Virus record (IMG/VR): IMGVR_UViG_3300006928_000121 | Location: 1-21,338 of that record | Origin: a virus | Length of the DNA stretch: 21,338 nucleotides | Direction: 5' to 3' (one strand) | Shown: piece by piece, positions 4,201 through 20,230 of the stretch | Numbering within the stretch: position 1 is the first letter of the stretch | How the letters are laid out: every line of letters starts with the position of its first letter | Notes under the pieces: model-generated | Database searches by the model: none | Seen by the model: only the letters and a program-made list of their open reading frames with translations | Told to the model about the DNA's origin: nothing | Program-made: the position numbers and the translations under genes

Positions 4201-5396
4201 TGTGAAGGGCTTGTACGATTTATATCATCCCAAGCATCGCCTGCTTCATTTCCACGAGTATTAGCTACATCATCCATTTGTTTACGATAAGCATCGCTCA
4301 TCCCTGGAGTATTGTAGTTCTTAAATTCATCTTCTGATAAATGTTTAGCTAGATATTCAGTTCTATAGCGTGAACGTGAGACACCTTTACCTGCTATAAA
4401 GTTATCAGCAGCGTTTTGTAAACCTGTAGATTCATCTAGTGCTTGCTGAGTCTTTATATAATTCTCCATCGCTTCATTGCCAATTCTATCAATCTCATAA
4501 CCAGGCATTTTTGCTGCTTTTGCAGCTCTTGCAGCCTGCTTTCCTTTGATAAAACCACCAATCCCATGAGCTAGATGGTTGAATCCTGAACCAATCAGGA
4601 CAGTTTTCATTCTTTCTAGGTATTCGTTATCACCTTCATTAACAGCAAGAGCATTCACTAACCAAGGTGCTACCCCAGGAGCATGGTCTTGAAATAGATT
4701 AACAAGGTTCTCTTCATAGAAAGCAGCTTGACCTTCTTTAAATCCACCTCTTTGCATGAAGTCAGCAGCAGTACCTTCCGCAGATATAGCTGCAAACTGA
4801 ATCCATTTATTACCTTTATTAGCTAAATTAGCAGCTCTATGAACTCCTGCAGCGCCTGTAGCAGCTTTACCAATACCTTTAGTAGTAGCTGCTAGGACAC
4901 CAAATTCAACAAAGCCTCTAACTATCTTTCCATATCCAGTTTTATTCTCAGGAACCCAGTCATCCGGTATATCTAACCATGTGCCTGGTACGTATTCCTC
5001 ACTAAAGGGGTCATCAGTAGCAGCTGTAGGCTTACCAAACAGCTCGTTAAAACCTTTTCTTACTGTATCACCACCTAAGTCTAAAGTAGAAGCTACACTT
5101 TCAACAGCGTCAGCTGTACCACCAACTGCTGCAGTGCCAAGTTCACTACCTACTGTTTGTGCTTGTTCTACGAGTGTTGGTTGTTGAGCGTTTTGTATAC
5201 CTTGCTGAATAGCTTGTGTAGCATTCTGTGCTCCATCTTGTAATGCTTGAGGATCTACCCCTGGCATTGTAGGTGCTACATTTGGTACTTGTGGTACTGG
5301 CTGGTCTGATGGTACTGGTATAAGATCGGAGAGTTTGTTGGCTTCTTCTGCAGCAATTTCTGCATTAACCTCTTCTCCTCTTGGATTTTCTGCCAT
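1260..5396 (-). CDS. Internal virion (core/ejection) protein, gp16-like
   Basis: This is a 1378-residue protein, close in size to T7 gp16 (about 1318 aa), in the gp16 position between gp15 and the tail fibre. In T7 this protein is part of the inner core, is ejected into the host and helps form the channel for genome entry. The first ~150 residues are Ala/Gln/Pro-rich with long predicted disordered stretches. Hydrophobic segments occur near residues 155-185 and 1005-1022 (AKAIVGITAIATLTG). The remainder is largely helical and charged. I could not find the E-S-x-x motif or the GLMQ-type motif of the lytic transglycosylase domain that T7 gp16 carries at its N terminus, so wall-degrading activity is not supported here. 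Identity rests on size and order more than on motifs. It starts 2 bp after the gp15 stop. Confidence 0.82.
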   Translation of the reverse strand: MAENPRGEEVNAEIAAEEANKLSDLIPVPSDQPVPQVPNVAPTMPGVDPQALQDGAQNATQAIQQGIQNAQQPTLVEQAQTVGSELGTAAVGGTADAVESVASTLDLGGDTVRKGFNELFGKPTAATDDPFSEEYVPGTWLDIPDDWVPENKTGYGKIVRGFVEFGVLAATTKGIGKAATGAAGVHRAANLANKGNKWIQFAAISAEGTAADFMQRGGFKEGQAAFYEENLVNLFQDHAPGVAPWLVNALAVNEGDNEYLERMKTVLIGSGFNHLAHGIGGFIKGKQAARAAKAAKMPGYEIDRIGNEAMENYIKTQQALDESTGLQNAADNFIAGKGVSRSRYRTEYLAKHLSEDEFKNYNTPGMSDAYRKQMDDVANTRGNEAGDAWDDINRTSPSQEAANAGRKPDPFVNPERFDSFDKGTIPNNGKDAARKHLSGAINDMKNGGDGRSYTPYATESAIKAMSAGSKTYREWVKETLDDITDDAFKGLDGALSWREVQDVIIRKAQPILEDIHAYADGKKVDLNALFKKQLNDPENYRVYSDEGNVIKTITPIQKGVNIIGIHALTRLASDIATGAVHVSDGLPIGRQMDMILEASKRAMIENKKLSLMWSLDGQAQSAGFKLTTPIQKAYTKGLENITKEMNEYHDWLSRLSKEGNHDLRQKLAILHQMSDGKVRNMNQLHEWLKASVWGGRMDADNIPGRIWEEGVGAMYNSILSAPITPIKAITSTNLYALSRPMITALAAQMPWHANAKEALIASAQIDAIGRSFSESLKMFKYNIDLGNARKSQSYTGKFDLQSNLKDWQAKLPYIEQFGDDNLKLAASFTNFWVNMNNSPLMAYSRIWMGAGDAAARTFSGRFRMASKTARDLLDQGIDPEDLNKFVREYEEGYRKEIFKQDKYGQWVVHEKAAKRAGDKAALTQDLEGRVAALQGLQKIPFMRNFFTFMRTGVGAIGRDFVENTPFARMQNKWKDLVEANPPRNLELYGLTPDEVAGEVLMMKGNLEVAKAIVGITAIATLTGRYRGDMPLDKEERALWKMRKIQPNSFNIAGAQFGIKRMEMYQPVMNMTANAVSNMGMLGEDVLDRTLQKATWIATTIITDTTMLSGVEDLASILDPETNVKPLEWTAARIVRAHLPAAGFSGSLGNIYDASAKEAQNFWQLLGRRDVFLKSFVANKYDVVGKDRSGKTMTYGPENTILRAFNQISPITITPIDNDPVKKMLHDMRYDLPEVLSKMNEEPLNSLEKSAMEKYLSMDKQFRAELERVADPYNEFYKSFQEYKKGGFKIHENAVRQGMPLGNKHKEGWKLQDQDWYIEVDRIFKNAKERAKENVLREHPDLRDRITMRTHKKLYGKSGAYGAAETRLPAIEKLMNIPK

Positions 5397-12929: not shown

Positions 12930-14054
12930 TTAGAATGTGGTTGGAGCTGTATTTGTAGTATGTAGTTCAATACATGAGGCAGGGTTAAGATAGTCGGCGC
13001 CCATTGCTAAACGTCCGAGTATAATATCGCCTTGGTAAATCACTGATACATCACCACTCGTTACTTGAACCTGTGGTCCGATAGCTTCAACGACACCTGC
13101 GGCTTCCTTCTGGAAGATGAGTCCACAAGATGTACCCCAAGTATTAGCAAGTCCGTAGTCATTGTTGACTCCACCTTGTGCTACTGAGGCGTTCTCCATT
13201 GTTTGACCAACGAATGAACCAGCATTATCAATTGTTGTTGCAGTACCATACTTACCTTGGAAAGGTACGTTCATGGACTGAAGGATATCAATACCTGCAA
13301 TAGATAAGATTCCTTTACCTTTCTGCAATCCATCACCTTGCTGATCTCTATTGATAAGCGCATTAGATGATACGTTCTCAATAAGAGTATAGTATTGGCG
13401 AGGTGAGAGTACGGCGACACGGCCTTCTTGTGATACTCCTTTCTCATCTAGCTGTGTTGCAGCTTCAAAGAATGCTGATACAAGTTTACCTGAATCAAGA
13501 GCGTCACCAGCTGCACCGGAACCGGAGCCTACCTGGATTGTAGATCCACCTGGCTCAACTTTACCTGAAGCCGAGATGGGGTGTGCCTTACGGGCACCAC
13601 GTGAGATAGCTCTAAAGATGAGTCTATCATATTTTTCTGCGAGAGCAAAACCAATCTTCTTAGAGATTTCACCACGTAATTCGTAGTGAGCTAGGGTCTC
13701 GTCAAGGTCGTAAACGAATGCAGAGCTGATCAAGAGGTCATCCATTTGGATGGTCTTCTCAGCTACTGGCAGCGCGTTCTCTGTACCCAAGATAGGTGTA
13801 CCTGGGGTATGGTAGTCGGCGCTCATGCGTCCCGTGTAGATGAACTGTAAAGATTTACCGTTCTTTAGGGTACGACGAGTAACAAGATTCCTGGCGATTG
13901 TGTTATGCTGGAAACCTTTGAAGAGCTCTCCTGAGAAGAGTTTCAGATAGGTTCCGTACTTGGCATCATACCCAGCCTGGTTTGTCGTCAGGGCTAGAGG
14001 GGTTGAACCAGTACTATTAATCTTACCTAAAGCGGTAGTTAAAGCATTAGCCAT
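12930..14054 (-). CDS. Major capsid protein, gp10-like
   Basis: This 374-residue protein has HK97-fold character and matches the T7 gp10A family in size (345 aa). Recognisable parts are the N-terminal K-Y-G-T-Y-L-K-L-F-S-G-E-L segment, the N-T-I-A-R-N-L-V-T-R-R run and the G-K-S-L-Q-F-I-Y-T-G-R-M loop (residues ~58-75), as well as the I-Q-M-D-D-L-L region. The ATG at 14054 follows a leader of about 155 bp with several inverted repeats, and a strong terminator follows the gene; both fit a highly expressed transcript. I saw no obvious slippery site for a 10B-type frameshifted minor form, since the terminator closely follows the stop. Confidence 0.96.
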   Translation of the reverse strand: MANALTTALGKINSTGSTPLALTTNQAGYDAKYGTYLKLFSGELFKGFQHNTIARNLVTRRTLKNGKSLQFIYTGRMSADYHTPGTPILGTENALPVAEKTIQMDDLLISSAFVYDLDETLAHYELRGEISKKIGFALAEKYDRLIFRAISRGARKAHPISASGKVEPGGSTIQVGSGSGAAGDALDSGKLVSAFFEAATQLDEKGVSQEGRVAVLSPRQYYTLIENVSSNALINRDQQGDGLQKGKGILSIAGIDILQSMNVPFQGKYGTATTIDNAGSFVGQTMENASVAQGGVNNDYGLANTWGTSCGLIFQKEAAGVVEAIGPQVQVTSGDVSVIYQGDIILGRLAMGADYLNPASCIELHTTNTAPTTF

Positions 14055-14209
14055 TTATCTTTTTAAAAGTTTATATAAGTTTCTCAGCTGAAATTGTTGC
14101 GCGTTTGTTTGCGGGTCTATCCCCACCGTCTAGACGGCAAAAGGTATCCGACGTATCGGGCTCGTGCCAATGAAAGAGAGGTCCGACTCTGAGGTGCCTC
14201 TCTTCCTGA
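14055..14209 (-). promoter_or_regulatory. Capsid gene leader with three inverted repeats
   Basis: The 155-bp non-coding stretch lies between the 49-aa gene stop and the capsid ATG. In transcription order it holds an 8-bp stem AAGAGAGG/CCTCTCTT with a 15-nt loop (14204-14174), a 4-bp hairpin CCGA-TACG-TCGG (14159-14148), and a perfect 12-bp palindrome CCGTCTAGACGG (14137-14126). An AT-rich stretch (TATATAAACTTTTAAAAAG) lies just before the start codon. No T-run follows the first hairpin, so it is not a standard terminator. A late phage promoter or mRNA-stabilising or processing element is plausible, but no promoter consensus can be assigned from sequence alone. Confidence 0.55.
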
Positions 14210-14359
14210 TCATAGAGTAGTTAATGCTGTCTCTAGATCAATCTCTTCTGTCTCGTTATTCATGTAGTCATCAGTTGCTTTAGCAATCTTCTGACCTTCA
14301 GTAGGTTCTGGTTCGGATTTGTTCTCAGATCCTAGCCATGTTACATTAGCTTTTTCCAT
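14210..14359 (-). CDS. Small acidic protein of unknown function (49 aa)
   Basis: This short gene encodes MEKANVTWLGSENKSEPEP... to a C-terminal ...EEIDLETALTTL, very rich in Glu, Asp and Thr. The ATG at 14359 overlaps the end of the 79-aa gene by 14 bp, with a GGAG about 11 bases upstream of the ATG. It is the last gene before the capsid leader. No family recognised; coding support comes from the overlap, composition and reading-frame continuity, so the call is moderate. Confidence 0.6.
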   Translation of the reverse strand: MEKANVTWLGSENKSEPEPTEGQKIAKATDDYMNNETEEIDLETALTTL

Positions 14360-14585
14360 CTTTAGCAGGCTCCAGGTTTTTTATTTCGGATTCCAGGTTG
14401 GCCAGTAAATCCACGAGGTCTGATTTTCTTCTTTGGTAAGCACTATCAAGTTGCGTAAGTTGGGCTTTGGCTTCTTTGACTTCGTTTTCTTTTTGAGTGA
14501 GTTTGAGTTTGCCAAGTTGTTCCTCCGATACAACGTAGACTGTACGAGTAGGTGGTGTAAAGTAGGAATCAAATAATGAGTACAT
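14346..14585 (-). CDS. Small coiled-coil protein (79 aa), unknown function
   Basis: The N terminus MYSLFDSYFTPPTRTVYVVS is aromatic and Pro-containing; I recall similar openings in other marine phage small proteins, but cannot verify this. Residues ~24-72 form one long helix with heptad-spaced hydrophobics (Leu/Ile/Ala) and many Lys/Glu/Gln, so a coiled coil is expected. The ATG overlaps the stop of the 46-aa membrane peptide as TAATG, and its own end overlaps the 49-aa gene. There is no signal peptide. A structural or chaperone-like role near the capsid is possible but unproven. Confidence 0.75.
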   Translation of the reverse strand: MYSLFDSYFTPPTRTVYVVSEEQLGKLKLTQKENEVKEAKAQLTQLDSAYQRRKSDLVDLLANLESEIKNLEPAKDGKS

Positions 14586-14725
14586 TAGTATTCGTTAGTA
14601 AGTTCAGTGTTACAGGGGCAATCACCACGGCAATTCTCATGTGCATTTAAATGCATGAGCTCTACTGCAGTGAAGAACCCCAAGAGCATGATAACACATG
14701 CCCAGGGGGATTCAAGATACTTCAT
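14585..14725 (-). CDS. Small single-pass membrane protein with Cys-rich tail (46 aa)
   Basis: The gene starts with ATG at 14725 directly after the TAA of the porin-like gene, with no gap. It has a short N terminus (MKYLESPW), one hydrophobic segment at about residues 8-24 (ACVIMLLGFFTAVEL), then a polar tail with the pattern C-R-G-D-C-P-C (residues 32-38). Its stop overlaps the next start as TAATG. The tail would suit an oxidising compartment or metal binding. It could be a small holin-like or spanin-like membrane peptide, but it shows no lipobox and only one segment, so I give no function. Tight spacing on both sides is the main support. Confidence 0.65.
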   Translation of the reverse strand: MKYLESPWACVIMLLGFFTAVELMHLNAHENCRGDCPCNTELTNEY

Positions 14726-15085
14726 TTAGAAGCTATACTTGGCACCGATTTTTGTGCCATATGCATTATCAGCATCTTCATCAGTAATGAATGATACTTC
14801 TCCATACACATCTAGTTTCTCAGATGCAGCTACGGAAGCTCCGAGCTTGCCTGAGAATTCAGTTGATCCGTCCGCGCCGTCACCGTTGACAAGGGCTGGG
14901 CCACCTTGAATATAATATCCAAGATCACCTACCTCGCCTTCGTAACCTACGTGTAGATCAGTAGTACGGGAAGTATAATCATTGCCTGTATAGGATGCGT
15001 TAGACTCGACGTTAGTATAAACGCCAGCCATTGCAGGAGCAGAAGCGAAAGTTGTTGCCGCTAGAGCAATTGCAAATGTTTTCAT
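14726..15085 (-). CDS. Secreted outer-membrane beta-barrel (porin-like) protein
   Basis: The 119-residue product has a clear signal peptide (residues 1-20: Lys2, a hydrophobic core, and an A-P-A-M-A cleavage site before G21). The mature ~99 residues alternate hydrophobic and polar residues in strand-length blocks (for example DLHVGYEGEVGDLGYYIQGG, FSGKLGASVAAS, LDVYGEVSFIT) and end in K-I-G-A-K-Y-S-F. A terminal Phe after alternating aromatics is the standard signal for beta-barrel assembly in the outer membrane. The size suits a small barrel of perhaps 8 strands, much shorter than a full porin. I recall similar small secreted barrels in marine cyanophages. It probably enters the host envelope during infection, but a virion role cannot be excluded. 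It begins 6 bp after the 17-aa peptide stop. Confidence 0.82.
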   Translation of the reverse strand: MKTFAIALAATTFASAPAMAGVYTNVESNASYTGNDYTSRTTDLHVGYEGEVGDLGYYIQGGPALVNGDGADGSTEFSGKLGASVAASEKLDVYGEVSFITDEDADNAYGTKIGAKYSF

Positions 15086-15091
15086 GTTAAG

Positions 15092-15145
15092 TTAATTGGA
15101 AGTTTTTGTGTACTCAACACCACGATACCTTAGTTTAACAGTCAT
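15092..15145 (-). CDS. Very short DUF4278-like peptide (17 aa)
   Basis: The peptide MTVKLRYRGVEYTKTSN carries the Y-R-G motif with the K-L-x-Y-R-G-x-x-Y spacing of DUF4278, a family of short cyanobacterial and phage proteins usually around 60 aa. A GGAG sits 8 bases before the ATG, a better ribosome site than most genes here. The in-frame ATG at 15178 would add residues but lacks such a site. It is either a minimal member, a truncated remnant, or a leader peptide for the porin-like gene 6 bp downstream. Confidence 0.5.
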   Translation of the reverse strand: MTVKLRYRGVEYTKTSN

Positions 15146-15269
15146 TGTTAATACTCCAGTACCACAACCCCGTTCCATGCTGTGGTTTCATGCGACCTTC
15201 AAGAGAAGGTTGAACGGACGTGGCGTGAGGTGGCTTCTACTGTATCGACATACGAGCCGCCTTTGTTAC
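15146..15269 (-). ncRNA. Candidate structured RNA between hli and the DUF4278-like peptide
   Basis: This 124-bp gap contains three short perfect hairpins in the transcript: GTAT-GTCG-ATAC (15253-15242), ACCTTC-TCTT-GAAGGT (15210-15195) and ACCACA...TGTGGT with a 14-nt loop (15186-15161). The plus-strand open frame across it is the complement of this structured stretch and of the neighbouring genes and shows no protein family. Known structured RNAs near light-related genes in cyanophages include the wcaG and PhotoRC-II motifs; I cannot tell whether this is one of them. No T-run follows, so it is not a simple terminator. Confidence 0.4.
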
Positions 15270-15443
15270 CTAGAATATTCCAGGTATGATTTGTCCAGTG
15301 AATAGGTAAGCACCGACTGCTGCATTGAATCCAATCATTGCGAGCCAGCCATTTACACGTTCAGCATTCTCCAGGTACTCTTGAGTAGTAGGTGGAGTAA
15401 CGACCTCAACTTGAGGTTCTGTAGCAAATCTGTTGTTAGGCAT
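15270..15443 (-). CDS. hli: High-light-inducible protein (Hli), phage type
   Basis: The 57-residue product has a polar N terminus (1-24) and one transmembrane helix with the chlorophyll-binding LHC motif, here A-E-R-V-N-G-W-L-A-M-I-G-F (residues 27-39), ending in Y-L-F-T-G-Q-I-I-P-G-I-F. The TGQIIPG ending is the signature of the multicopy, light-induced Hli group shared by Prochlorococcus and its phages. Hli proteins bind chlorophyll and carotenoid in thylakoids and protect photosystem II; phage copies are thought to keep photosynthesis going during infection. The usual Arg of ExxNxR is Trp33 here; Glu28 and Asn31 are kept. The start (ATG 15443) has no clear ribosome site; the 60-bp gap upstream contains a 5-bp GGCGG/CCGCC inverted repeat. 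Confidence 0.95.
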   Translation of the reverse strand: MPNNRFATEPQVEVVTPPTTQEYLENAERVNGWLAMIGFNAAVGAYLFTGQIIPGIF

Positions 15444-15503
15444 TAGTAAATAAGATTGATGTACTAAGGCGGGGACGATGAACTGTTCGGGCCGCCACTT
15501 AAC

Positions 15504-16109
15504 TTATCTTAGAGGGTAATCCCCATGTACCCATTTAACTAGAGAGTATCTAGTTCCATGAGTTACAGGCTGGACTTGGTGTATCCACCGACTATCAAAT
15601 ACAATAATAGTGCCCTGTTCTCTAGGACATACTAGTTTATTTGAGTCAGCTTCCCAACTCCAGTCTTCCATATCAGCATAGTCTAGAAGGAGATCACCTC
15701 CTTCATAGTCATTCTCATCTGATAGTTGTACGGTTACACTAAGCTTCCTAGTATTTGCAATAGATTTTCTGTCACAACTATAATCCATATGATTATTGAA
15801 GTACATACCTACATCATACTTAGAAAACTGTGCCCGTTCTTTGTCATAATCTGTTAAATCATAATCAAAGTTGTGGTTGTTTGCAATCCTAGTGTACCCA
15901 ATCAGCATAGCATTAAGCCATTCTAATTCAGTACCTTGGATGTGGACATTCCTTAAGTCATGCTTGATTGAACCACTGTCACCTTTACCGGTGAGGATTC
16001 CTCCAAGTGTATACTCTTTGTAACAATGAGCATTGATTATGTTGTTACACATATCAACTGGAAGTGCTGACTTAAAGATAGTGTAAGGACACCAGCGGTT
16101 GTTAGTCAT
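15504..16109 (-). CDS. 2-oxoglutarate/Fe(II)-dependent dioxygenase (PKHD/prolyl hydroxylase type)
   Basis: This is a 201-residue protein of the double-stranded beta-helix dioxygenase fold. The iron triad is visible as H107-x-D109 (N-N-H-M-D-Y) and H177 (R-W-I-H-Q-V), and R187 in T-R-Y-S-L-V-K-W is the 2-oxoglutarate anchor. The L-S-x-x-x-D-Y-E-G-G-D-L stretch (129-140) is typical of PKHD-type hydroxylases. The family couples oxidation of 2-oxoglutarate to hydroxylation of a protein, amino acid or nucleobase. Such genes are frequent in marine cyanophages, usually with unknown substrate. The ATG at 16109 overlaps the stop of the Lys-rich 30-aa gene as TAATG, placing it in the same operon as the scaffold and small genes. 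Confidence 0.93.
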   Translation of the reverse strand: MTNNRWCPYTIFKSALPVDMCNNIINAHCYKEYTLGGILTGKGDSGSIKHDLRNVHIQGTELEWLNAMLIGYTRIANNHNFDYDLTDYDKERAQFSKYDVGMYFNNHMDYSCDRKSIANTRKLSVTVQLSDENDYEGGDLLLDYADMEDWSWEADSNKLVCPREQGTIIVFDSRWIHQVQPVTHGTRYSLVKWVHGDYPLR

Positions 16110-16201
16110 TAGTTGTAGTGAACTTTTTTAGGTTTCTCTTTTTTAACCTTTTTCTTTTTCTTCTTTTTGTTCCCGCTGAGAAAGCGGTAGCGAGGTGCCA
16201 T
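16109..16201 (-). CDS. Lys-rich basic peptide (30 aa)
   Basis: MAPRYRFLSGN is followed by seven consecutive Lys and then further Lys-rich sequence, 12 Lys in 30 residues, ending KKVHYN. It is joined to the 56-aa gene upstream and the dioxygenase downstream by TAATG at both ends, which strongly supports translation despite its size. The A-rich coding strand makes the reading frame slip-prone. Such a cation would bind nucleic acid or an acidic partner such as the scaffold; no family is known to me. Confidence 0.62.
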   Translation of the reverse strand: MAPRYRFLSGNKKKKKKKVKKEKPKKVHYN

Positions 16202-16371
16202 TATTTTCTATAAGATGCAGTTGCTTTGTCAGTTGCTTGCTTACGCTTGTTAAGTTTTACTCCTACTTCAACTATCTTAGCAGGAGTTTCAACAATGGCT
16301 TTGCCAAACTCACCTATGCCTTCAAGAAAACTTTTATCTTCACCTCTTTTAGGCTTACCTTTCTCACTCAT
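16201..16371 (-). CDS. Small basic protein of unknown function (56 aa)
   Basis: The product begins MSEKGKPKRGEDKSFLEGIGEFGKAI and ends KQATDKATASYRK. It is basic at both ends with a central amphipathic segment (residues ~15-40: Ile, Val, Phe and Gly among charged residues). Its start overlaps the 51-aa gene by 8 bp (ATGAGTGA) and its stop overlaps the Lys-rich gene as TAATG. No family recognised; the chain of overlaps is the main evidence. Confidence 0.68.
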   Translation of the reverse strand: MSEKGKPKRGEDKSFLEGIGEFGKAIVETPAKIVEVGVKLNKRKQATDKATASYRK

Positions 16372-16519
16372 CCTTCTTACCAGTACCTAATACTTCAGCT
16401 GGAGTCTTGCCCCAACGATCTTTGAACTGTTGCTCAGAGAGACCTTCAGCTCCACCGCTATCTACAATAAGCTGTGCTTCTTCTTTCATGCGGGAGCTTT
16501 TAATTCCTTGTGTTGTCAT
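16364..16519 (-). CDS. Small protein of unknown function (51 aa)
   Basis: The product starts MTTQGIKSSRMKEEAQLIVDSG, continues through A-E-G-L-S-E-Q-Q-F-K-D-R-W-G-K-T-P-A-E-V-L and ends in a charged GKKDE tail. The E-Q-Q-F-x-x-R-W-G-x-T-P-A-E run looks like a short helix-turn-helix-like conserved block, though I cannot assign a family. The ATG overlaps the scaffold stop as ATGA, so translation is probably coupled to scaffold. Confidence 0.7.
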   Translation of the reverse strand: MTTQGIKSSRMKEEAQLIVDSGGAEGLSEQQFKDRWGKTPAEVLGTGKKDE

Positions 16520-17367
16520 ACGTTTAAGTTAGATCGTTCTAGTTTTTGTTGAATGTCTGCTCTGTAAGCAGGGTCTGATTCATATCTACTGTCACCCATA
16601 TCGCGTACAACTTCAGCCATACTACGATACTTACTACCTTGACTAGGTGTCTTACCAGTTACAAGGTCAGGATTCCTACCTATTGCGTCTTCCATCTGTG
16701 CATTAAGTGCTTTAACTGCGAACCTTAATGCTGACTTATTACCAGTAGCAACTACATCATCAAACGCTTTGACATCATCAGCAGGTAAGTTGTTACCAGC
16801 CCACTGAGTTAAGGTATCATAAGCAGCTTTACCGCCAGCTAAGTTATGTATCTCAGAGACATCTGAATCAGTAAGTTCAGCTGAGTCACCCCAACCTCTT
16901 TGTGCTCTAGATCCTTGTAAGTATACATCAATTGTGTCTTGAGGTATACCTGCATTAACTAGAGAATCATTCATCTCTTGAGTTATGTTACCTTCATTAG
17001 CTTCAAAGTGCTGAGCAATCTTCCAGGGATCAACTCCTGCATCTTCTAGCTGAGCTGTGATCTGTTCACCATAAATCTGTTCAACAGTATCATAGTTAAC
17101 AGCACCATCTTGTTGGTAAGGATCACCATACTGACCTTCTTCAGTGGTCTCTTCAGTAGTAATCTCCTCTTCCTGACTACCTTGTTTACTCTGTAATTCA
17201 AGATAAGCTTTCTCTAATTCTTCAGCATTTTTATATTTACCAGCCAGTAATTCTGACTGCTCTTCAGCCATCTTCTCGCCTTGAGCTAGGTTCTCTTGGT
17301 CCCTAGCTGCATCGGAAGCTAACTCTACTGGATCATTAGATGGATCGTATGTAATTGTGTTTGCCAT
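16516..17367 (-). CDS. Capsid assembly scaffolding protein, gp9-like
   Basis: This 283-residue, acidic and mostly helical protein is close to T7 gp9 in size (307 aa) and has the same place between portal and capsid. Residues ~20-65 are a Glu/Gln/Ala helix with the Y-K-N-A-E-E-L-E-K-A-Y-L-E-L segment typical of podovirus scaffolds. An acidic Glu/Thr-rich linker (about 65-80) follows. The C-terminal region (M-A-E-V-V-R-D-M-G-D-S-R-Y-E-S-D-P-A-Y-R) is the conserved block that binds capsid and drives shell formation. It begins 3 bp after the portal stop. Confidence 0.92.
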   Translation of the reverse strand: MANTITYDPSNDPVELASDAARDQENLAQGEKMAEEQSELLAGKYKNAEELEKAYLELQSKQGSQEEEITTEETTEEGQYGDPYQQDGAVNYDTVEQIYGEQITAQLEDAGVDPWKIAQHFEANEGNITQEMNDSLVNAGIPQDTIDVYLQGSRAQRGWGDSAELTDSDVSEIHNLAGGKAAYDTLTQWAGNNLPADDVKAFDDVVATGNKSALRFAVKALNAQMEDAIGRNPDLVTGKTPSQGSKYRSMAEVVRDMGDSRYESDPAYRADIQQKLERSNLNV

Positions 17368-17370
17368 AGT

Positions 17371-18993
17371 TTACTGGGGTGCGGGTGCTGCTTGTTGTGC
17401 TGCTTGTTGTGCTTGTGGGCTATCCATAGCGCCTTGTAAGCTCTCTAAAATTCCAGGGTTCTTCTCTGGATCTGCAAGTGGTGACTTAGCAAACTGACCT
17501 GCTTGCTGCATCATCATTGCTTGTTGTTGTTGCTGCATCTGTTGCTGCTGCTCTTCATTCCTTTCTTCTACACTCTTAACTAGGTTAAGTACATCAATAC
17601 CTTGAGCAGCTGCCAATCTCTTGATAGCCTCATCAGGATTCAAGAATTGAGCCAGAGCTTCTGGTCCCATAGTCTGAGAAATAGTAGTGATGAATGTAAT
17701 AAGTGATTCTCTATCTTGTCCACGGCCTAACGCATTGATACCAGCTACAATTGTAACATTAACCAACCCTTTAGGTAGTGAAGGAATTTTTTTAGATACA
17801 GTCAGTGTGTGCATCTTACGGTCTAAGTATGGTATTAAGAACTCAGCTGTAAGTAAACTAAATAGTCCACCTAGCTGTTGTTCTAGTTCCATCTGCGTCA
17901 TCCGTACTTCCTCTGCAGTAGTACGTTCTGACTGTCTTGGGTTTAATACAAGGAAAGCTTCTGATATTCTACGTTCAATGACACCAGCTAAATCAAAAGC
18001 AGTACGGAAGTCAGCTTGTTTACCAACTTGTATTACTCCAATATCATCTGGCCGCCCTTGAATGATAGCACCGTTGCTAGCATTTGCTAGTGTTGCTGGC
18101 TTCGTAGTAGAGGATGGAGATACAGTAAAGACAACCTTAGCTGCCGCTGCACTTCCCTCAACTAGAGCTTGCATCAATGCTTCTAGTGATTTCAAATCGC
18201 CGAGAAATTCCTCAACTCTTGACCTTCCATAATCTTCCCCGTCCACTGTTACAAACCGTAGTGGTAACCAAGGACTTTTATCTAGTGGGGACTTACCCTC
18301 ACTGTTAGGGATCATCTTGTCATCAGCTTCCTGATGCCAGTACCACCCTTTCTTACTAGCTCTAACACAAGTGTAGACATCTACATCCTTGTCGTGTCCA
18401 CCTGTGCTGCTGTCAACGACACCACGTTCAGGTGATTCTAGAAAGTTTACTCCAGCCATTGCTGTGAGTACATGACGGTTGACCCGTTCGCGTGTAATTA
18501 TCTCAGTTACGTTACCATTTCCATCACGTTCTACTACATACCTATTGAGTGGATACATCTTCATACCATCTTTAGACATGTAAAGCAATGCATTACCTGT
18601 GACTACAAGATGTTTGATAGCTGAGAAGATTTGAACACGATCAGTAGAAGCAGCTATGCTTTCCATAACCATCCGTTCAATCTTAGCAAAGCTTAGATCC
18701 ATCTCACTCTTTTGTTCTGCAGGTATCTCTACTCCTAACTTAGAGTCATCTAGTTGGAGTTTAAAGAAACTTGTAGAGGGTGGTAGTAACCCTAGCATAA
18801 GTTTAGAGGCTAGAGTCACTACACCTTTAGCACCGACTGACTGCCAAGGAGTTTGAATCTTTGTGTAGTTAGTCGCTCCCTCCTCATCAATTAAGATGGA
18901 AGGGATTGTAAGCTTAGCACATTCAAGTGCTACGTCAAGGAAATTGGTACGGCCACTAGATAATTTACCATATCGTTGCCGTGCTAATTCCAT
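17371..18993 (-). CDS. Portal (head-tail connector) protein, gp8-like
   Basis: The 540-residue product is the same length class as T7 gp8 (536 aa). The N-terminal region matches strongly by eye: E-C-A-K-L-T-I-P-S-I, then Q-T-P-W-Q-S-V-G-A-K-G-V and L-A-S-K-L-M-L-G-L-L-P (residues ~23-72). A core with S-E-R-T-T-A-E-E-V-R (residues ~355-364) follows, and the C-terminal ~60 residues are low-complexity Gln/Met/Ala (from about residue 475). Portals form the 12-mer at the head vertex through which DNA is packaged. The ATG at 18993 overlaps the gp7.3-like stop as TAATG. Confidence 0.97.
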   Translation of the reverse strand: MELARQRYGKLSSGRTNFLDVALECAKLTIPSILIDEEGATNYTKIQTPWQSVGAKGVVTLASKLMLGLLPPSTSFFKLQLDDSKLGVEIPAEQKSEMDLSFAKIERMVMESIAASTDRVQIFSAIKHLVVTGNALLYMSKDGMKMYPLNRYVVERDGNGNVTEIITRERVNRHVLTAMAGVNFLESPERGVVDSSTGGHDKDVDVYTCVRASKKGWYWHQEADDKMIPNSEGKSPLDKSPWLPLRFVTVDGEDYGRSRVEEFLGDLKSLEALMQALVEGSAAAAKVVFTVSPSSTTKPATLANASNGAIIQGRPDDIGVIQVGKQADFRTAFDLAGVIERRISEAFLVLNPRQSERTTAEEVRMTQMELEQQLGGLFSLLTAEFLIPYLDRKMHTLTVSKKIPSLPKGLVNVTIVAGINALGRGQDRESLITFITTISQTMGPEALAQFLNPDEAIKRLAAAQGIDVLNLVKSVEERNEEQQQQMQQQQQAMMMQQAGQFAKSPLADPEKNPGILESLQGAMDSPQAQQAAQQAAPAPQ

Positions 18994-19358
18994 TATCTTC
19001 TGTTACCTGTATTGGTATTTCCTGTATTTACATTGCCGCCAGCACCTGTGCCTGTACCACCTTGTGGGGTAGTGCCTTGTCCAGTATTAACTGTACCAGG
19101 AGCTTGTGGTGATGCTTGCTTCTTCTCATCGGGAGCTGCAAGCTGCTTAGATCCACGACGCCTCTTCTGTCTCTTAGATGCTTTCTTAGCATCAGACTGT
19201 TGTACCTTTCCACCTTCGATTTCACCTTGATCGGTTACGTCAAGAGCTGCGCTACTAGGCAGATTTTGTACTACTGGAGGTGGTACTGGTGGAGGAGGAG
19301 GAGGAGGTGGGGGTGGAGGTGGTGGAGGCGGCGGCGGGGATGGTGGAGAACCACACAT
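18993..19358 (-). CDS. Polyproline, basic gp7.3-like virion protein
   Basis: This 121-residue protein has a run of 17 Pro at residues 8-24 (mixed codons), then a helical middle, a strongly basic patch K-R-Q-K-R-R-R-G-S-K-Q-L (residues ~62-73) and a Gly/Thr/Asn-rich tail. T7 carries gp7.3, a small tail-assembly protein with a Lys/Arg-Gly-Ser-Leu segment, at the same place before the portal. Marine podoviruses often have Pro-rich N termini plus this basic R-R-x-G-x-x-x-L block here. I infer a virion or tail-assembly role from position and this block. It overlaps the portal start by one base. Confidence 0.72.
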   Translation of the reverse strand: MCGSPPSPPPPPPPPPPPPPPPPPVPPPVVQNLPSSAALDVTDQGEIEGGKVQQSDAKKASKRQKRRRGSKQLAAPDEKKQASPQAPGTVNTGQGTTPQGGTGTGAGGNVNTGNTNTGNRR

Positions 19359-19548: not shown

Positions 19549-20230
19549 GTTCAAAGAACGCTGGCATCCGAGCTCTCTGTGTTTCGAGAAGCCCTTCGGC
19601 TTTACCTCTATACATTAAAGAGTCACTCTGATCCAACCAAAATTTTTTGTCCAAATATTTGTTAGAGCTTGACTTCAATGGGGACATAACCCAGTTGATA
19701 GTAGCTTTCCTAAGCTTGTCCAAACTAGGAGAGATGGTCAAGCCAAGCTCTCTACACACCAGGGAATTAGCACCGACATGTACCTGTTCGTCTCTTGAGA
19801 TATCCGCGCTCACCGTGCGCATTCCAGCGTCACCGTTAAAGCGGAAGAAAGGTAGGAGTACGAAGAAGATTGCACGCTCAGCGACCATGGCTTTAAGAAT
19901 TGTGTGATCTGGATGTGATATCCAGGCTTCTCTGATTCTTTTAGCTTCTGATTCAGCCTTTGCATCAACACCGTGAGCCTCGGCGATATAACCGAGAGCG
20001 AGATCATGTCTCTCTTCGTCCCTGATATTGGACACAAGTAGCTCCCTCGCTGTTTCTGGAATTTCATGTTTGATGGCTTCTTGTATGAAGTCTCCGACTG
20101 GAACTTCCATATGTCTCATAGCGAGGGCACGGAATATTGTTTCTTCCGCACCTTCTTGGAGCTTACCTGCAGTGGTCTGTACTGGAGACCACTTACGTTT
20201 TCTATTTAATAATTTGTCATAAGGATTCAT
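19517..20230 (-). CDS. nrdB: Class I ribonucleotide reductase small (beta) subunit, divergent
   Basis: I place the start at ATG 20230, one base after the nrdA stop, giving 237 residues; the frame is open further upstream only as overlap with nrdA. The protein is a ferritin-like four-helix bundle with the di-metal ligand set E29/E30, E72-x-x-H75, E118 and E148-x-x-H151. It is much shorter than E. coli NrdB (375 aa). In that family the radical Tyr lies four residues after the first His; here this is Leu79, with the nearest Tyr at 81. Y236 near the C terminus could match the tail Tyr that relays the radical to alpha. Direct pairing with nrdA supports function as beta subunit. A Tyr-independent cofactor, such as dimanganese, is possible. 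Confidence 0.85.
   Translation of the reverse strand: MNPYDKLLNRKRKWSPVQTTAGKLQEGAEETIFRALAMRHMEVPVGDFIQEAIKHEIPETARELLVSNIRDEERHDLALGYIAEAHGVDAKAESEAKRIREAWISHPDHTILKAMVAERAIFFVLLPFFRFNGDAGMRTVSADISRDEQVHVGANSLVCRELGLTISPSLDKLRKATINWVMSPLKSSSNKYLDKKFWLDQSDSLMYRGKAEGLLETQRARMPAFFEHANPNLPKYA

Follow-up and report, generated by a model that had tools for sequence, protein, structure and literature searches.

Type-2 glutamine riboswitches, which are found in marine picocyanobacteria, activate expression in response to glutamine. They are linked to DUF4278 genes, and the proteins encoded by these genes are similar to the N-terminal part of IF17, an inhibitor of glutamine synthetase (PMC6316151). 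The peptides downstream of the motif are typically 17-100 aa long (PMC2864571). Phage-borne glutamine riboswitches have been reported in T4-like cyanophages (PMC9602691, PMC9964418) and in methylophage Melnitz (PMC9004378). Here we analyze the IMG/VR virus record IMGVR_UViG_3300006928_000121 (21,338 bases, hereafter the window), which by its gene order on the minus strand belongs to a T7-like cyanopodovirus, a virus of marine cyanobacteria. The interval between its scaffold gene gp9 (16516..17367, minus strand) and its major capsid gene gp10 (12930..14054, minus strand) contains an accessory cassette with a Glutamine-II riboswitch and, directly before the capsid gene, a predicted folded leader RNA with an interchangeable 5′ module.

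In T7, 93 bases separate gp9 and gp10, with the promoter phi10 in between. In tRNA punctuation and in mascRNA-type elements, a tRNA or tRNA-like fold is processed at an mRNA boundary. We propose that the cyanopodovirus locus is a late cassette of accessory genes in which two RNA devices, the glutamine switch and the capsid-side module, act as punctuation, and we give this reading, including the functions suggested for both devices, an even chance of being correct.

Glutamine-II riboswitch and its downstream peptide

The sole curated-level Rfam match in the window is a complete Glutamine-II riboswitch aptamer with both pseudoknot strands (15161..15219, minus strand; RF01704, 54.6 bits against a gathering threshold of 33). 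These strands, CGUUC and GGAACG, are able to form the pseudoknot and are kept in the window aptamer and in the relatives displayed alongside it. A 17-aa peptide frame, MTVKLRYRGVEYTKTSN (15092..15145, minus strand, with a 28-aa form reaching to 15178), opens 15 bases past the aptamer end with its ATG at 15145, and a Shine-Dalgarno-like GGAG is located at 15157-15154, 8 bases ahead of this ATG.

An aptamer at gathering level was found in the same interval of 14 out of 20 annotated relatives (9/10 and 5/10 in two sets), and it is present in SS120-1 though psbA is not in the interval there. At gathering level it is missing from six of the 20 annotated records (S-B28, S-SBP1, DSL-LC07, Syn5, P60, and S-CBP3). 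In two of these, glutamine matches below the threshold lie at the expected position (S-SBP1, 19.6 bits, E 1.8; S-CBP3, 21.7 bits, E 3.6). The match in S-CBP3 (L218, 4193-4238) is to the type-1 glutamine (glnA) riboswitch and precedes a YRG peptide; relatives carry type-2 there. Among the window and 100 phage loci, 52 contain scaffold or portal plus capsid, and Rfam or a strict regular expression detects the aptamer in 40 of these 52. The other sub-threshold Rfam matches, including a weak TarB match, were taken as chance, except for the glutamine and mascRNA ones, which are weak. A covariance model of the riboswitch with its flanks (R1) mixed the flanks with the aptamer in its structure, and the Rfam model was used instead.

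The riboswitch is a new member of a known family in a new setting. As in the RF01704 copies of marine picocyanobacteria, a complete aptamer above the cut-off is followed by a small frame with a YRG motif. In contrast to the host copies, it is located in a phage cassette before the capsid gene, and its one-repeat peptide is followed by a barrel gene or by the capsid gene. T4-like cyanophages and Melnitz likewise carry a glutamine aptamer, but that of Melnitz goes with a tmRNA, whereas here it is combined with a DUF4278-like peptide in a T7-like phage. We found no report of a glutamine riboswitch in a cyanopodovirus in searches of an open-access collection, which lacks most subscription papers.

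A small YRG-motif frame follows the aptamer in all 65 aptamer-bearing loci, a set that includes near-duplicates (L011 is 100% identical to the window and L061 is P-SSP7 again), and the same loose test passes at 55 out of 5000 random positions in these loci. The window frame encodes a YRGVxYT peptide of 17 aa. Peptide length is 16-20 aa in the kin of the window and of P-SSP7, and reaches up to 43 aa elsewhere through N-terminal extension. The barrel gene opens 6 bases after the window peptide and likewise a few bases after it in L001, L003, and L005. The 16-18 aa form is unannotated in all seven annotated records that carry it (L001-L006 and L008), which agrees with an earlier note, made from the window sequence alone, that gene callers would miss some small proteins of this cassette.

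A pattern search for the aptamer in host genomes gave at least 119 stretches. Among the matches listed, nearly all stretches of Prochlorococcus and Synechococcus precede proteins 33-72 aa long in which the YRG motif occurs, often two or three times, and the stretches in unrelated bacteria have no such YRG frame and look like chance. Two host proteins tested pass the cut-off of DUF4278 (PF14105; 33.1 and 42.9 bits), the domain that also forms the N-terminus of IF17. A profile of 15 phage peptides scored 6.0-17.9 bits on 12 host proteins, eight of which lie above the maximum of 2000 shuffles (10.9). We also considered a connection to PirA and abandoned it, as the literature on PirA, in the excerpts available, does not relate it to DUF4278 or a riboswitch.

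Folded leader before the capsid gene

Conserved hairpins between the cassette and the capsid gene became apparent when 19 upstream regions were aligned. In the window a covariance model of the element (R2) matches positions 14107-14210 with 100.4 bits, directly before the capsid gene and just outside the cassette interval. The elements, on the minus strand, are the hairpin H1 (14172..14206) with a near-invariant 15-nt loop, CACCTCAGAGTCGGA, which is replaced by a tRNA-Gly or a tRNA-like fold in some relatives, and then the capsid leader RNA (14111..14170), consisting of P1/P1b/P2 with a UACG loop (14136-14168), the palindrome P3 (14126-14137), and the hairpin P4 (14111-14126).

All candidates were picked by regular expressions for H1 or a T-arm upstream. 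Alignment A3 contains 54 of the 81 H1-type candidates (80 and the window), taken from 60 listed of the 80; the window stands in for L011, and L281, L284, L319, L325, L333, and L255 were excluded for divergent spacing. Over 26 named pairs, 89.4% of the cells are paired, and 19 pairs changed on both sides. The covariation score of 0.435 compares with 0.156 (standard deviation 0.009) in shuffles (0/500 as high) and with at most 0.162 when partners are slid; as the structure was derived from the A3 sequences, the slid control leans towards it, and kinship can exceed shuffles, but double changes in four helices remain. RNAalifold independently finds H1 and P1 again, and P2 in part; 12 of its 18 pairs show compensatory changes.

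Model R2 matches 58 out of 59 phage sources at E ≤1, and 55 of them at E below 0.01; each has a single match, located immediately ahead of the capsid gene. Of the sources, 15 of the 59 are also part of the model alignment, and 43 of the 44 others matched. R2 found nothing in 79 host and other loci (607 kb), nor in pelagiphage HTVC019P or the T7 stretch. Before the capsid gene of HTVC019P (L339, ~19990-20015), a CCCCTTGCGAGGGACAA stretch resembles P2 by eye. Searched by pattern in IMG/VR, the H1 core occurs 121 times. By a loose test, a capsid-like N-terminal motif lies no more than 900 bases away in 110 of these; among the rest, several adjoin a contig end or look like chance. Within E ≤1, Rfam 15 contains no match for 14107-14210, and no report of the leader was found in the open-access searches, with the same limit as above. 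We regard the capsid leader as a candidate new RNA family. A 27-aa frame at 14130-14213 was rejected as a gene, with a nonsynonymous-to-synonymous ratio (pN/pS) of at least 0.7 in 14 of the 19 comparisons with a value; its apparent conservation is due to the RNA hairpin loop located there.

P3 and a further hairpin, P5 (window ~14080-14095), are often perfect DNA palindromes with the self-complementary centers CTAG, CATG, ACGT, and AGCT. Palindromes of at least 8 bases are found at P3 in 124 and at P5 in 138 of 148 leader segments, compared to 236 and 537 out of 3000 random segments of matching length.

These palindromes would fit a pre-capsid element that acts at the DNA level, as a promoter for a phage RNA polymerase or as a pause or termination site, with the hairpins as by-products. 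T7 carries phi10 at the equivalent place, with GGGAGACCACAAC after it, and P4 of the cyanophages reads GGGATAGACCACAA in many relatives; together with the following bases (GGGATAGACCACAA) it resembles the T7 sequence at phi10 (GGGAGACCACAACGG), which lends a promoter some plausibility. However, the stem letters vary freely while pairing stays, the element is present as a single copy per source examined, tRNA and tRNA-like folds take the place of H1, and H1 is not followed by a U run, and we consider control by such a DNA site unlikely. The cyanophages and T7 would share a special control just before the capsid gene, but R2 finds no match in the T7 stretch, and the cyanophage leader is covarying and structured and has an interchangeable tRNA module.

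Interchangeable 5′ module

The same folded leader directly follows the module, whichever form the latter has (hairpin, tRNA-Gly, or tRNA-like). ARAGORN predicted a tRNA-Gly(UCC) in the exact place of H1 in four of the 84 loci scanned, namely L005 (NATL1A-7; 4744-4814), L013 (5813-5883), L014 (5804-5876), and L018 (1608-1680), and no other tRNA; the window has no tRNA gene by ARAGORN. In all four loci the leader begins at the base next to the predicted tRNA end. Across the cyanopodovirus genome records examined, the only RNA annotated in the interval is one tRNA. Close kin can differ in form: the window capsid is 95-100% identical to those of three IMG/VR contigs (L011 100%, L012 97%, and L013 95%), and L013 carries tRNA-Gly and L012 H1.

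P-SSP7, P-SSP3, P-GSP1, S-TIP37, S-CBP3, S-SBP1, and others retain a T-arm and an acceptor stem, which corresponds to a tRNA-like fold without D-arm. The acceptor stem scores at least 5 in 29 of 33 distinct T-arm loci (four tRNA loci included), and the mean score is 5.48, compared to 3.73 (standard deviation 0.25, maximum 4.36, 200 re-dealings) when the 3′ strands are swapped between loci. L025, L043, L088, and L281 stay below 5, and the minimum spacing in the test probably excludes the nearest stem in the first three. As judged by eye, the upstream peptide of P-SSP7 and S-CBP3 ends at a stop codon within the anticodon-like loop. The 147 loci picked by the regular expressions for H1 or a T-arm (L085 was dropped as a false match) comprise 112 with H1, 31 with a T-arm, and 4 with a tRNA, counts that apply only to loci with one of these forms. 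The H1 loop is identical in 81 of the 112. In Syn5 (L216, 4269-4309), a weak mascRNA-like Rfam match was found before the capsid gene (23.4 bits, E 2.5).

One could argue that the tRNA-Gly is carried for translation and that H1 and the tRNA-like folds either derive from it by decay or have nothing to do with it. The four intact tRNA-Gly(UCC) genes predicted by ARAGORN fit this explanation, as do L019 and L317, which look like D-arm-less derivatives by eye. Decay, however, would keep neither the H1 loop near-invariant nor acceptor stems that differ in sequence from locus to locus (20 distinct best pairs), and this origin appears very improbable.

T7 has RNase III sites, and H1 with the leader may similarly be a site for RNase III or RNase E, or a stabilizer of the mRNA, unrelated to tRNA enzymes. 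The H1 stem is long, and expression of host RNase E rises during infection by P-SSP7 (PMC10989914). Yet it is the loop that is near-invariant, not the stem alone, and tRNA forms occur at the same site, which makes such a site rather doubtful. With tRNA punctuation and mascRNA-type elements the module shares a tRNA or tRNA-like fold at an mRNA boundary, including the weak match in Syn5; it differs in that the message is a phage capsid mRNA, that one of three forms is a non-tRNA hairpin, and that processing is putative here.

Accessory genes of the cassette

All ten minus-strand frames that the earlier note had described between gp9 and gp10 were located. Its statement that they are mostly linked by overlaps of 1-14 bases holds narrowly: counted from gp9 onward, six of the ten junctions overlap (4, 8, 1, 1, 1, and 14 bases) and four are gaps (60, 124, 6, and 0 bases). 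The 124-base gap between hli and the 17-aa frame houses the riboswitch.

The three family identities suggested in that note were confirmed. The 2OG-Fe(II) oxygenase (201 aa; 15504..16109, minus strand, as are all the following) matches PF13640 with 56.8 bits (cut-off 27) and phrog_61 (E 7e-28), the high-light-inducible protein hli (57 aa; 15270..15443) matches phrog_178 (E 2e-21), and the gp222/Phage_OMP barrel protein (119 aa; 14726..15085) matches PF24653 with 153.1 bits (cut-off 27). Upstream of the oxygenase are a 51-aa frame (16364..16519; relatives in L012, L013, L029, and L014; pN/pS 0.19-0.59), a 56-aa frame (16201..16371) with a full-length match only in the identical L011, and a 30-aa Lys-rich peptide (16109..16201; relatives in L012, L013, L014, L026, and L029; pN/pS 0.09 and 0.13). 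The 17-aa peptide frame has a pN/pS of 0.25-0.45. After the barrel gene follow a 46-aa peptide with a hydrophobic stretch (14585..14725; 72% identity to L012 and 61% to L014), a 79-aa protein (14346..14585; phrog_22044, E 5e-23; pN/pS 0.17-0.59), and a 49-aa acidic frame (14210..14359; L012 83%, L030 64%, and L013 56%; pN/pS 0.35 in two comparisons).

In every possible gap-free comparison, pN/pS is below 0.6 for the 51, 30, 201, 57 (hli), 17, 119, 79, and 49 aa frames; for three of them (201, 30, and 49 aa), one or two such comparisons were available. Eight of the ten frames show purifying selection, and the substitution counts favor coding. Coding of the 56-aa frame is unproven, and the 46-aa frame has relatives but no gap-free comparison. 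Several frames below 60 aa are conserved in relatives.

Upstream of the scaffold gene is the portal gene (17371-18993, minus strand), and the tail tube genes lie below the capsid gene in window coordinates. Among annotated records, the window is closest to Tangaroavirus, Tiamatvirus, and other Autographiviridae that infect Prochlorococcus and Synechococcus, and the window capsid has at most 72% identity to any listed record. In the annotated gene tables of relatives, the gene content of the scaffold-capsid interval varies, and hli and psbA, where present, sit in this interval in the tables examined; the interval of the window contains no psbA. Comparison across relatives thus bears out the view of the interval as an accessory-gene site. 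The cassette is of a known kind: hli and psbA have been described as cyanopodovirus accessory genes at a syntenic locus (PMC4646655), and hli, psbA, and the gp222 barrel were known as accessory genes of this site before. A 121-aa frame (18993-19358) with a long proline run near its start is also present, just upstream of the portal gene.

A plain insertion site for accessory genes, co-transcribed with scaffold and capsid and lacking special RNA control, would agree with the variable gene content and with the coding constraint on most frames. It would leave the over-cut-off riboswitch and the covarying leader in most relatives examined without explanation, and we find it quite improbable. The interpretation of the earlier note as an accessory site stands for the interval and its small frames, but it overlooked two structured RNAs, which are the most conserved parts of the stretch, more so than the accessory genes. 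Its suggestion that co-transcription with scaffold and capsid would make the products abundant is in doubt, because a riboswitch precedes the peptide and an RNA element separates the cassette from the capsid gene.

Discussion

We propose that plentiful glutamine would open translation of the 17-aa peptide, as an ON switch like the type-2 riboswitch reported from the hosts. Only a few bases lie between the peptide frame and the barrel gene, which allows for translational coupling; the barrel would perhaps be co-regulated with the peptide in this way and may be the real target. The peptide might be a one-repeat form of the riboswitch-associated DUF4278 proteins of the host that acts on, or mimics, host nitrogen control, and phages might use it to damp or re-tune nitrogen assimilation when glutamine is high. 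On the capsid side, the tRNA-like or H1 module may be a cleavage or protection signal that parts the capsid message from the accessory message. tRNA enzymes would cleave the module where it is a tRNA or tRNA-like, and H1 would be cut by another nuclease or protect the end; cyanobacteria possess RNases P, Z, III, and E (PMC10989914). The folded leader would then become the stable 5′ end of an abundant, separate capsid mRNA.

Several observations weigh against this proposal. Twelve of the 52 loci with scaffold or portal plus capsid have no riboswitch by Rfam gathering or regular expression; all 12 were covered by Rfam searches, and two have weak sub-threshold glutamine matches. Fold energy alone is unremarkable in the window for the aptamer (z -0.9 against shuffles) and for H1 with the leader (z -1.5), and the sole predicted occlusion of the Shine-Dalgarno sequence is a weak UCC/GGA pairing. 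P60 has no leader match with R2, and Syn5 matches with E 0.94 only. H1, the form present in the window, is not tRNA-like, and a processing enzyme shared by all forms is a guess. Phage peptides of at least 20 aa stay under the DUF4278 cut-off (14.1-20.5 against 25.3 bits) and two out of eight in one set have no match; the 17-aa window peptide is shorter than a Pfam scan allows, and its 28-aa form has no DUF4278 match. Glutamine binding, the RNA ends, and the effects on expression are moreover predictions.

Because of these sub-cut-off Pfam scores and of the profile result, we call the phage peptide DUF4278-like and not a member of the family. It has the YRG motif in common with DUF4278, which is the best, albeit weak, Pfam match for most phage peptides scanned; it differs in its single repeat, in its score below the Pfam cut-off, and in being far shorter than IF17.

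In its most comprehensive form the proposal is tentative and falls short of an even chance: cyanopodoviruses would share a new pre-capsid RNA family that excises and protects the capsid mRNA and whose signal can be a tRNA, a D-arm-less tRNA-like fold, or a hairpin with a fixed loop, each able to replace the others. A glutamine switch captured from the host, together with a DUF4278-like peptide of a single repeat, would tie the late program to the nitrogen status of the host.

Some seemingly conserved mini-genes in such regions are RNA, which calls for caution in their annotation. A leader with a swapping 5′ module would allow a comparison, provided by nature, of the ways in which a phage controls its capsid protein level. 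Among ocean viruses, cyanopodoviruses serve as models, and a widespread glutamine aptamer with a conserved peptide of only 16 residues upward would make the sensing of host nitrogen by phages testable.

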